A stretch of 47,837 nucleotides of DNA from a virus: the IMG/VR virus record IMGVR_UViG_3300031841_003775, positions 1-47,837 of that record; one strand, 5' to 3'. Positions 8,435 to 12,115 of the stretch are shown in pieces. The position numbers were made by a program, and so were the translations under genes. Numbering within the stretch: position 1 is the first letter of the stretch; every line of letters starts with the position of its first letter. A model generated the notes under the pieces. That model was not told the origin of the DNA. It worked only from the letters and a program-made list of their open reading frames with translations, and made no database searches.

Positions 8435-9685
8435 ATGGCATGGCAAGACAGGTTAGTACCATGTACCTACACCTCACCAAGTGGCGCAGAATTTACGCTG
8501 CAATATGAGGATGTAAGGCGCAAGATCAAAAAGAAAACAACCGTATTTGAGTTTGTCTCAAGCGATGATGTGTACGTGCAAGATAACTTTGCTGGTGCGA
8601 AAACTATCCCAATGACAATCTATTTTTCAGGGGAAGACCACGACACGCAGGCAAATGAGTTTTTCGAAGCGCTATCAGAGAAAGGTGCAGGTAAGCTACA
8701 GCATCCAGCCTACGGGCTGTCAACAGTTAATGCGACTGATGATATAGAGCAAGTCGATAGATTAAAAACTGGGGCTAACCAGAGCGCCTTTACTATCACT
8801 TTCATTGAGACAATTACCGATCTTTACCCTAGCGCACAGGTTAACCGCAACGAGTCAGCACAAGCGGCTAGTGCCAACTTTGATAATGTGAAAAGTGAAG
8901 AGTTTGCCGATGGTATTACTTTAGACTCAGTAGCTGAAGAGCAATCATTGATCAATGAGGTGAACGATTTTGTTGGCAACGTTGAAGAAGGATTACAGGA
9001 ATTAGTTGATAACGCAGAAGACGCGCAGAAGTTCATTAATGATGTATCGACTTCGATCACTAATGGCATTGACGTTTTAATTGGTACGCCTTTAACGCTG
9101 GCATTTCAATGCACACAACTGGTTAAGTCGGCCACCAATACTGTCGCACTTATTGGTGCAAAACTAGATTCTTATGGTGATTTGCTAGACGACATTATAG
9201 GCCCAGACAATACAACCACCACACCGACATATAACAACGTCGGTCAAAACTCAGTACAAACACAAGATCTCTTTGCATCAAGCAACGTGTCAGCGATTGC
9301 CGATAGCATCCTGGCGACGGAGTTTGAAACGCGTGATGAAGCATTAACCGCCGCTATATCAGTGCAGGATTCATTCTTCGAGTATGTGGAATGGAAAGAG
9401 CGCAACTTTGCATCGGTATCTATTGAAGATGAGGGCGCAGGCTATGAGGCGCTACTTGACCACGTAACAAAGACCGTTGACAGTGTGATTGATTCAGCTT
9501 CAACACTACAGCGCTTTAGAAATGTGGTACTCGAGCGCGATATGCTAGTGCTAGACTTTGCCTATCAGTATTTTGGCACCAGTGACAGCGATACGATTGA
9601 GAAAGTTATTTTGCTGAATGGGTTGGATAATAGTGATATTTTTACGATTGAGAAGGGTAAGCTCATGAAGTACTTGGTGAATTAA
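8435..9685 (+). CDS. Tail/DNA circulation protein (Mu gpN/gp43-like)
   Basis: 416 residues. The N-terminal about 110 residues match the DNA_circ_N type: WQDRLVPCTYTSPSGAEF, then KKKTTVFEFVSSDDVYVQD and a FSGEDHDTQANEFFEALSEKG helix. A long helical middle (130-250) and a C-terminal domain with VVLERDMLVLDFAYQYFG follow. In Mu this protein joins the tail tube to the baseplate hub. It is followed one base later by the gpP-like gene. Confidence 0.87.
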   Translation: MAWQDRLVPCTYTSPSGAEFTLQYEDVRRKIKKKTTVFEFVSSDDVYVQDNFAGAKTIPMTIYFSGEDHDTQANEFFEALSEKGAGKLQHPAYGLSTVNATDDIEQVDRLKTGANQSAFTITFIETITDLYPSAQVNRNESAQAASANFDNVKSEEFADGITLDSVAEEQSLINEVNDFVGNVEEGLQELVDNAEDAQKFINDVSTSITNGIDVLIGTPLTLAFQCTQLVKSATNTVALIGAKLDSYGDLLDDIIGPDNTTTTPTYNNVGQNSVQTQDLFASSNVSAIADSILATEFETRDEALTAAISVQDSFFEYVEWKERNFASVSIEDEGAGYEALLDHVTKTVDSVIDSASTLQRFRNVVLERDMLVLDFAYQYFGTSDSDTIEKVILLNGLDNSDIFTIEKGKLMKYLVN

Positions 9686-9686
9686 T

Positions 9687-10898
9687 ATGACAACCTACAC
9701 CGCCAAACAAGGCGAAACTTTTGAAGATGTAAGCCGCAAGGAATACGGCACAGAAGAAAGCACAGCCAAGCTACGCAAGGCCAACCCGTCAGCGGGTGCA
9801 GAGCTTGATGCGGGAACAAAGCTATTTATTCCTAAAACACCAACTAAGACAAAGATTAACCCGACACTTGATGAAGTTACGGTTTTAATTGGATCGACTG
9901 AATTTAAAAACTTTCTAGAAGTGGTGATTAGTCAGCGGTTTGATAGCTTTGATACCTGCGACATTATTGCACCGTTTGAGCCAGAAAATACGCAGTTCAG
10001 AGAACTATTCAAACCGTTTAGCTACCAATCAATAGAAGTCTTTATTGGTGAAGAATTGGTGTTTAGTGGGACTCAAATGGGCGTTAACCCATCCGTGACA
10101 GCACAAAGCCGCACTGTCACGCTGTCGGGCTACTCTCGTTGTGCAGTGATTAATGATACTTGCGTGCCTATTTCCGCTTATCCCGTCGAGGTTAGAGGCT
10201 TTAAATTAGATCGCATTGCTAAGACTATCACGGAGGTATTCCCGTTTGACGTTGTTGTTGATGCTGATGTGGGCGCATCGTTTAACGTGGCCACCATCAA
10301 GCCTGACAAGCGAGTGGCACCCTACCTAACTGAGCTGGCCAAGCAGCGCGACATTGTCATCACTAACAACTTGGAAGGTAATTTGCTTTTAACTAAAGCG
10401 AGCGAATCTGAAAGCGTGGCGTTTTTGAAAGATAACCAACCGCCATTATTGTCAGTGGTGCCGCAATTCAGTGAGCAAAGTTATTACAGCGATTACACGG
10501 CGATATTGCCCGTTATTATTCGCCAGAATCCAACCAGTTACACGGCAAAGAATCGCAAGCTTACGAACTCGCTACGAGTAGATAACTACATGGCGACCGA
10601 TTCATTTAATGGCGATGAAAAAACCGTTGCTGTAAGCCGCAGGGCGCGAGGTTTGGCTAATTCAATTCGTTATTCGTGCGAACTGGCAACGTTACGCGAT
10701 CCGCAAGGTGACTTGTACGCGGTTAATACGTTTGTGAACATTCAAGCGCCAACCGCGATGGTTTATCGTGATACTAAGATGTTCGTGCGAGGCGTTACAA
10801 TGTCACTAACCCCAAATGCAAGAACATGCGCTTTAGAGTTGACGCTACCAGAAGCTTACAATGGTGAAGATGTGGAGGTTTTACCGTGGGAAGAATAA
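9687..10898 (+). CDS. Baseplate hub protein (Mu gpP/gp44-like) with LysM domain
   Basis: 403 residues. Residues 1-50 form a LysM-like peptidoglycan-binding motif (YTAKQGETFEDVSRKEYG to LFIP). The rest matches the gp44/gpP hub: VTVLIGSTEFKNFLEVVISQ, FSGTQMGVNPSVTAQSRTVT and late RARGLANSIRYSCEL. The trimeric hub carries the spike encoded after the structured-RNA region. The N-terminal LysM is an addition relative to Mu gpP and may touch the cell wall or simply fold into the hub. An intrinsic terminator follows. Confidence 0.87.
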   Translation: MTTYTAKQGETFEDVSRKEYGTEESTAKLRKANPSAGAELDAGTKLFIPKTPTKTKINPTLDEVTVLIGSTEFKNFLEVVISQRFDSFDTCDIIAPFEPENTQFRELFKPFSYQSIEVFIGEELVFSGTQMGVNPSVTAQSRTVTLSGYSRCAVINDTCVPISAYPVEVRGFKLDRIAKTITEVFPFDVVVDADVGASFNVATIKPDKRVAPYLTELAKQRDIVITNNLEGNLLLTKASESESVAFLKDNQPPLLSVVPQFSEQSYYSDYTAILPVIIRQNPTSYTAKNRKLTNSLRVDNYMATDSFNGDEKTVAVSRRARGLANSIRYSCELATLRDPQGDLYAVNTFVNIQAPTAMVYRDTKMFVRGVTMSLTPNARTCALELTLPEAYNGEDVEVLPWEE

Positions 10899-10909
10899 AT
10901 TTAATCGTA

Positions 10910-10946
10910 AAAATCGATTGATAACTAAATATTAATCGATTTTATT
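10910..10946 (+). terminator. AU-rich intrinsic terminator
   Basis: A perfect 10-bp inverted repeat AAAATCGATT (10910-10919)/AATCGATTTT (10934-10943), 14-base loop, 12 bases after the hub gene stop. It isolates the following non-coding stretch from the gene upstream. Confidence 0.65.
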
Positions 10947-10974
10947 CACTAGATTTATTTTTCGCGATGGTGTT

Positions 10975-11416
10975 TAATTAAGACCTAAGCAAGAGGTAGT
11001 TTCTTTTAATTTAACCCAAGTGGTGATTATCATGAATCTGTCTATGTAATGTAGACCTCGCACCTTTCGCCCTAGAGATAGGGCAATAAAACACTTTGCA
11101 AGTGTTGAGTTTATGGGTAGTGAATCACTTTACGAGCCCCGACCTAGTCGGACAAGCCAAAATAAGTTAGAACCCAAGACTTGTGAGATTCAAGTCAACT
11201 TGCAAAGTGCTTTAGCTTAAAATAAGTAGTTTTCATTGTTGGACGCGGTTATTTTAAATCATTTAAAATAAATGCAAATGATGAATCAAATGGAGAGATG
11301 CGTTTAGTAGCGTAATCACCCGAAGGTGTATCACGACCTAGTAATCAAACGTGCGTTGTAACTCTTGCAACGATTACCAATTAGAGCTTCTAAGCCGTCT
11401 TCGTGACGGCTTTTTT
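10975..11416 (+). ncRNA. Candidate large structured phage RNA (~440 nt)
   Basis: No credible gene fits between 10899 and 11455, yet the stretch is dense in helices. These include GTCTA/TAGAC (11040-11056), GCCCTA-GAGA-TAGGGC with a GNRA tetraloop (11069-11084), and a 12-bp long-range helix (11092-11103 with 11198-11209). That helix encloses TGGGT/ACCCA (11114-11118/11172-11176), CCGAC-CTA-GTCGG (11139-11151) and GACTTG/CAAGTC (11178-11196). Downstream lie a 10-bp AU hairpin (11249-11271), CACC-CGAA-GGTG (11317-11328), a stacked GTAAT/ATTAC plus CGTTG/CAACG hairpin (11341-11377) and a perfect terminator. Size and architecture recall the large phage RNAs GOLLD and ROOL, but I cannot match either consensus. 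The 5' end is approximate; TGTTTAAT (10971-10978) may be its -10 region. Function unknown. Confidence 0.68.
11393..11416 (+). terminator. Perfect intrinsic terminator of the structured RNA
   Basis: AGCCGTC (11393-11399), loop TTCGT, GACGGCT (11405-11411) and a six-T run. It ends the non-coding element 40 bases before the spike gene, whose own promoter follows. Confidence 0.92.
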
Positions 11417-11421
11417 GTGCG

Positions 11422-11430
11422 TGTTACAAT
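11422..11430 (+). promoter_or_regulatory. Extended -10 promoter TGTTACAAT
   Basis: TG-T-TACAAT lies just after the terminator and 25 bases upstream of the spike start. It restarts transcription for the spike gene, the same arrangement as at 8363-8400. Confidence 0.6.
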
Positions 11431-11455
11431 AAAGAAAAACGCAGGATTTATAACT

Positions 11456-12115
11456 ATGGGAAGAATAACAAGAGTATTAAATAACTCGCCAGAAAACAGA
11501 GTTAAGGCAGATCGCAACGGTGGCGATATCAATGAAATGGAACACCTACAGCCACTAGGTGACGATTCAAAGCCACTGCCACAAGATGACGGATGGAGCG
11601 ATCGCACTAGCGAGAATGGCAATGACGTTTACTTTGGTGCGTTTGATTACGACAATAAGATTGCAGTTGCAGGTGAAAAACGCACATACGCCCGTAACGC
11701 TGACGGCGTACCAGTTAACCACGTCTATTTAAAGAAAGACGGCACAATCATTATCGCCAATGACAGCTATAGCAAGACGATTAACCCAGACGGTTCATTT
11801 GTTGAGACTAACGGCAGTTATAGTAAGTCAGTTAACGCGGATGGCTCATGGTCTGAAACTAATGGCGCTTATACTCAATCGGTTGAAGCTAGTGGGGCAA
11901 TGACGCAAACGGGTCAGGTGTTTAACCTAAACGGATTTATCATTAATCCTGACGGATCGGCGACTTCACCAGTTAGCGTTGGCGCACCTACTGTCAATGG
12001 TACAACTTCGTTAACTGTTGCAGGTAAAGAGCAGAATGGACACGTACATGCTGCGGGCGGCTACCTAGACGCAGAAGGCAGACCAATTACTGGTAATAGT
12101 GGATCGCAACCATAA
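11456..12115 (+). CDS. Baseplate spike protein (Mu gp45 / P2 gpV-like)
   Basis: 219 residues from the ATG at 11456 (GCAGGA upstream; an in-frame ATG at 11351 lies inside the structured RNA and is unlikely). The N-terminal OB-like part starts GRITRVLNNSPENRVKADRN. Residues about 100-165 hold three beta repeats ending in PDGSF, ADGSW and SGAM, a triple-stranded beta-helix shaft. The tip carries GHVHAAGG, matching the HxH metal site of gpV-type spikes. The protein pierces the outer membrane. It lacks a lysozyme domain. Confidence 0.85.
   Translation: MGRITRVLNNSPENRVKADRNGGDINEMEHLQPLGDDSKPLPQDDGWSDRTSENGNDVYFGAFDYDNKIAVAGEKRTYARNADGVPVNHVYLKKDGTIIIANDSYSKTINPDGSFVETNGSYSKSVNADGSWSETNGAYTQSVEASGAMTQTGQVFNLNGFIINPDGSATSPVSVGAPTVNGTTSLTVAGKEQNGHVHAAGGYLDAEGRPITGNSGSQP

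Follow-up and report, generated by a model that had tools for sequence, protein, structure and literature searches.

In the genome of a Vibrio tailed phage (IMGVR_UViG_3300031841_003775; its full 47,837 nt are referred to here as the window), the genes for a DNA circularisation/baseplate hub protein (8435-9685) and a gp44-like hub protein (9687-10898) are followed by ~560 bases, 10899-11455, that contain no credible gene. The downstream gene begins with the ATG at 11456. What does the phage encode in this gap? A sequence-only reading of the region had pointed to a gene-free stretch giving rise to a structured RNA, and both the gap and the structure are borne out: the minimum free energy is -118.1 kcal/mol vs -95.8 +/- 6.5 for shuffled sequences (z -3.46; 0/100 as low). 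All RNA features described below are on the plus strand.

The right end of the RNA is a canonical intrinsic terminator (11392-11416) listed by a terminator scan. A matching terminator had been claimed on the left; what is found there is an AT-rich inverted repeat (10890-10963; 34-nt arms, 76% complementary), unlisted by the scan and a weak or non-classical terminator, which forms the left edge of the cassette and is also present in Vibrio phage MAG7, the closest relative, and in 1.191.O. A candidate extended -10 promoter, TG.TTTAAT (10967-10976), is kept in the same two phages and is absent from the consensus promoter scan; it would place the transcription start near 10984. Another extended -10 motif lies directly 3' of the terminator at 11418-11430 (TGTTACAAT; TGCTATAAT in the MAG7 and 1.191.O equivalents, L003 and L004) and probably serves the next gene.

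The 5' part contains the GCCCTA-GAGA-TAGGGC hairpin (11069-11084), common to the window, MAG7 and 1.191.O, and a long-range helix, described earlier as 12 bp, that extends to 17-nt arms (11087-11103 with 11198-11214; 94% complementary). The helix closes a self-closed multibranch domain, module M (11087-11214), which gives z -3.9 when folded alone. Vibrio phages of 60 kb have related M modules but lack the tag core described below. Vibrio phage 1.250.O has a 1.3-kb gene-free region adjoining the capsid genes (L005 1025-2370), also without the tag core; it contains two tRNA-like genes whose anticodon loops are odd, together with a module resembling window 11087-11214, and is possibly another large phage RNA.

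That the RNA is a stand-alone structured cassette, ~430 nt long, is supported on three counts: homologues show covariation, the RNA ends in a terminator of its own, and relatives have it at another gene junction. MAG7 has the homologous RNA one gene further upstream, between a 416-residue gene and the hub gene, and 1.191.O carries a related cassette with different contents at the same junction as MAG7's. The 416-residue gene and the hub gene are nearly adjoining in 1.087.A and PS15B-6. Since the junction differs between the window and MAG7, and the genes nearly touch in the latter two phages, the RNA acts as an insertion in its own right, ends included.

The earlier suggestion of kinship to GOLLD, ROOL or introns was not upheld, with no Rfam match to these even at relaxed thresholds; no other Rfam family matched the window RNA above cut-off, and sub-threshold matches at the tag site were to tmRNA families alone. 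The RNA resembles GOLLD and ROOL in that all are large modular phage RNAs near tRNAs, but it has no covariance-model match to them and its family has a tmRNA-like core. The "virion-associated" reading is unsupported. In Shigella phage Ag3, the gene-free region that holds the core also shows a sub-threshold match to the STnc100 sRNA (L033 2174-2283; 33.7 bits, cut-off 47, E=5e-4).

Sensitive blastn matched window positions 11217-11282 in Chaseviridae and Ounavirinae phages. Just 3' of the matched stretch, every homologue has AUAAAU-GCA-AAY-GA or a near variant, that is, a tmRNA-type resume codon and tag. A covariance model, R1, was built from 40 other diverse phage cores, leaving out the window, MAG7 and P1. 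R1 matches window 11225-11394 end to end (E=1.9e-9), as well as MAG7 (E=2.5e-9) and P1 (E=5e-17). On E. coli ssrA, R1 matches precisely the tag region, at 15.8 bits (E=0.064), and the tmRNA model RF00023 signals at its own tag positions (83/84-140), below cut-off, on the core in 10 of 17 phage records. The 3' half, 11225-11394, thus very probably belongs to a widespread phage RNA family with a tRNA-less tmRNA-like core.

At least 509 phage records contain a homologue (match to one core at E up to 1e-4). Carriers include Felix O1, CBA120 and other Ackermannviridae, Chaseviridae, Schitoviridae, several siphophages and P1, where the core lies directly 3' of the annotated dicF-like region. The core is present in 669 of 5,426 E. 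coli genomes, at 568 plasmid and 149 chromosomal places; the plasmid places are what would be expected of P1-like elements. One chromosomal core that was examined sits unannotated in a lambdoid prophage, with Q on one side and the holin gene on the other, a location of note for the earlier suggestion that the RNA is perhaps lysis-timed. Vibrio genomes searched with R1 gave no match, few candidates having been scored. No description of the RNA family was found in the literature (open-licence papers).

The core has the order of parts found in tmRNA: a hairpin at the PK1 position, a frame-setting A, the tag ORF, PK2 and PK3. In the window, the PK1-position hairpin (UUAUUUUAAAU/AUUUAAAAUAA; 11-nt arms, 100% complementary) spans 11249-11271. 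PK2 spans 11324-11353, with S1 (11324-11327/11336-11339) placed by R1, S2 (11332-11335/11350-11353) read from the sequence, and its covariation shown in the relatives. PK3 spans 11355-11386, consisting of S1 (11355-11358/11368-11371), the loop GAUUACCAA and S2 (11362-11365/11383-11386). R1 puts the first stems of PK2 and PK3 at 11324-11339 and 11355-11371; R1 is a poor fit to the PK1 and P5 pairing of the window itself. The sequence-only reading had noted an octamer repeat and a possible tertiary or alternative pairing between its copies. The repeat is real, in fact a 9-mer (CGACCTAGT, at 11140 and 11334), but it lies in the proposed PK2 and is probably coincidental.

An alignment of 40 cores shows the PK1-position hairpin, P5, PK2 and PK3. 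PK2 and PK3 covary strongly, so that the covariation looked for in homologues is present in many phage families, within the 3' half. In the named structure 91.6% of cells are paired vs 35-48% when the partners are slid by 1-3 columns, a control that keeps relatedness; double changes number 108 vs 32 in shuffled alignments, a control that does not remove it. Pairing reaches 99.4-100% in PK2 S1, PK2 S2 and PK3 S1, where double changes are numerous, and PK3 S2, which is variable in length, is longer with its own than with swapped partners. P1 keeps the pseudoknots despite a quite different sequence. The post-tag hairpin was not accepted as a T-loop/D-loop structure: covariation links its loop to a strand further 3', with which it forms PK2.

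The tag ORF of the window, ANDESNGEMRLVA (11274-11315), begins with the resume codon GCA and ends with UAA. The sequence-only reading had set its RNA against a conserved reading frame in the interval; a frame of 13 codons is present, but it is a tmRNA-type tag and no gene. The resume-codon context AUAAAU (11268-11273) includes A11270, the equivalent of E. coli tmRNA A86. This A, four bases before the resume codon, is A in 77/77 distinct cores, and the U85-equivalent is U or C; in E. coli tmRNA, A86 is required for frame choice and U85C is harmless (PMC2481249). The tags read ANDNVFLAVA in Felix-like phages and ANDSEMRVAA in Chaseviridae, each followed by a stop, and all 22 distinct ten-residue tags read A-N-[DE]...[AV]-A. 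Among tag ORFs one base apart, 12/16 differences are synonymous vs 23% expected (p=2e-5). An AUG start in another frame was rejected: frames +1 and +2 are interrupted in 32/41 and 36/41 ORFs. Judged from these sequence patterns, the phage tag is likely to be translated. The RNA might instead have another role, such as regulation or stability of adjacent RNA, keeping tmRNA-like parts by descent and leaving the tag unused. The core is found among exchangeable RNA modules and tRNAs, and module M exists without it; this alternative is nevertheless improbable in view of the synonymous bias in the tag ORF and the full conservation of the frame-setting A.

The other half of a tmRNA is missing. No tRNA-like domain (acceptor stem, T arm) flanks the core in 17 phage records, where tmRNA models hit tag positions or ordinary T arms only; no T arm was found in window 10800-11500, and no acceptor piece is encoded beside the coding piece. 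The core does not reach any tmRNA Rfam gathering cut-off, and ARAGORN finds no tmRNA at the core, apart from one spurious call in L039, discarded for its unrelated tag. Both miss the core because the tRNA-like domain is absent, and since standard finders search for this domain, the family has been overlooked. The window RNA is a relative of tmRNA without the tRNA-like domain, but lacking this defining feature the core is not classed as tmRNA.

In principle the RNA could be one part of a split tmRNA, with the acceptor half provided by a tRNA-like element in another part of the phage RNA or genome. Many phages have T-arm elements near the core. About 150-220 bases 5' of the core, Ackermannviridae (L032, L033, L038) have a tRNA-like element that ARAGORN overlooks: its anticodon arm is shortened, it has no CCA, and its acceptor strands covary (GGUGAGG/CCUCGUC, GGCGAGG/CCUCGCC, GGCGAAG/CUUCGCC). 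No such element is shared across the family, however: there is none in the window or near L013, and Felix-like phages have ordinary tRNAs only. A split tmRNA is therefore quite unlikely.

In place of a tRNA-like domain, the core has a 5' leader, AGUUUUCGU or GUAGUUUUC across the family. The window leader, GUAGUUUUC (11226-11234), can pair over 9 bp, in antisense, with GAA AAC UAC, codons 4-6 of the host tmRNA tag ORF. The host tag ORF has ACGAAAACUACG in E. coli, Vibrio and Aeromonas, among others; for Vibrio and Aeromonas the sequences were retrieved with a pattern that already includes most of ACGAAAACUACG. The leaders are complementary to one host tmRNA site beyond chance: against ssrA they form a mean of 9.5 contiguous Watson-Crick bp, with the best match at positions 96-99 in 38/40, and 0/300 shuffled ssrA sequences score as high. 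In most phages the pairing is 9-12 bp at this single site. The leaders reach a mean of 5.4 bp against their own core and no more than 8 bp against E. coli rRNA, from which GAAAAC is wholly absent. Leader-ssrA duplex energies have a mean z of -3.1 vs shuffled leaders. A pattern built on PK2 only recovered 147 cores, all 147 with the tag and a GTTTTC leader. Leader conservation could come partly from shared ancestry.

The leader match varies between groups. Ackermannviridae leaders form 8 Watson-Crick bp with ssrA (10 counting G-U), Chaseviridae with GTAGTTTTCTGAG lose the 3' side of the match and gain on the 5' side, and the L049 and L096 leaders match only weakly. The leader is not predicted to be unusually accessible (0.47; the core averages 0.44). 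A -35/-10 promoter-like sequence, TTGACA...TATAGT or TAGATT, would start transcription at the leader in Felix-like phages and in several siphophages. Chaseviridae leaders ending TTTTCTGAG are unable to pair with their own tag start (UCRUU/AAYGA), so such pairing was rejected as the leader's general role. In a search for a co-changed host and leader pair none was found; the single candidate, an L346 leader variant for a differently tagged host, was a false match within a coding region.

tmRNA ribosome rescue is nearly universal among bacteria, and two-piece tmRNAs use two RNAs of their own. By analogy with the latter, a translated tag without a tRNA half, joined to a host-directed leader, may most simply be read as a message supplied in trans. 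Computation shows the family, its pseudoknots, the lack of a tRNA-like domain, selection for coding in the tag and the complementarity of the leader; from these we infer expression, in-cell pairing and a message swap, as follows. The phage would produce the core as a separate RNA during infection. Its leader would pair with the host tmRNA tag ORF, so that the phage RNA rides on host Ala-tmRNA/SmpB. When this complex rescues a stalled ribosome, the host message would be covered and the ribosome would resume on the phage tag. The outcome would be a two-piece tmRNA for which the host lends the tRNA half. We put the whole mechanism, docking on host tmRNA and the phage tag message in trans, at a probability of roughly 0.45. 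Counted against docking is that the window leader pairing is limited to 9 bp, and we know of no precedent for a message given in trans to a one-piece tmRNA. We propose, still more tentatively, that these are a new class of trans-acting viral RNA, a tRNA-less message that docks on the host rescue RNA so that rescued ribosomes would end proteins with a phage-chosen tag.

The main rival of the message swap is antisense inhibition. Here the leader would cover the host tag ORF and the pseudoknots would occupy S1 or the ribosome, shutting down trans-translation and proteolytic tagging in infection. Leader complementarity to host tmRNA fits such a decoy, and phage-borne tmRNA fragments acting as inhibitors have a parallel in mycobacteriophage DS6A: its tmRNA fragment contains little beyond the tRNA-like domain, and tmRNA is strongly inhibited by a molecule resembling it (PMC4131195). 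A pure inhibitor would have no need of a selected in-frame tag, a conserved resume context and a conserved [AV]-A end, and we consider it unlikely. The DS6A fragment is also the mirror image of the window RNA: both are phage-borne tmRNA parts, but DS6A keeps the tRNA half and the window RNA the message half.

The phage RNA shares with one-piece tmRNA (ssrA, RF00023) the order PK1 position-message-PK2-PK3, the resume codon GCA, the A at -4 and a tag of the form A-N-[DE]...A. It differs in having no tRNA-like domain, a score below cut-off, an antisense leader instead and exchangeable flanking modules. Permuted two-piece tmRNAs (RF04321, RF01849-51), found also in marine phages such as Melnitz (PMC9004378), likewise have the message half on its own RNA and, of the Rfam families, match best, at about 16-33 bits against a cut-off of 47, but the phage RNA has no acceptor piece, another order of parts, and hosts with one-piece tmRNA.

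Phages such as lambda immP22 depend on tmRNA (PMC2862035). A phage RNA that has just the message half and is aimed at host tmRNA would be a new route for phage control of protein quality control in infection; phages may rewrite or block the tag on stalled bacterial proteins. Hundreds of phages, P1 among them, carry the family unannotated, and many unannotated 1-2 kb phage gaps would gain a defined component. The idea is directly testable in E. coli and Salmonella because P1 and Felix O1 carry the core.

Phages other than the Felix-like phages and siphophages with a promoter at the leader have exchangeable self-closed modules 5' of the core, of which module M is one. An inner module (GUGAUUAG...AGGCCGAUGCCC...GGCCCAGAC) is shared by L006 (about 1420-1500) and L017 (about 11650-11780); one phage has it on the 5' side of the core and the other on the 3' side, so RNA modules are exchanged between positions. 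A recurring hairpin module, CACAACAGGUAAG-AGC...GCUCUUUCCGUUGUG or a near variant, adjoins the core in lambdoid prophages, P1 and siphophages (L356 2420-2500 and 2834-2925; L355 1679-1787; L036 1660-1705).
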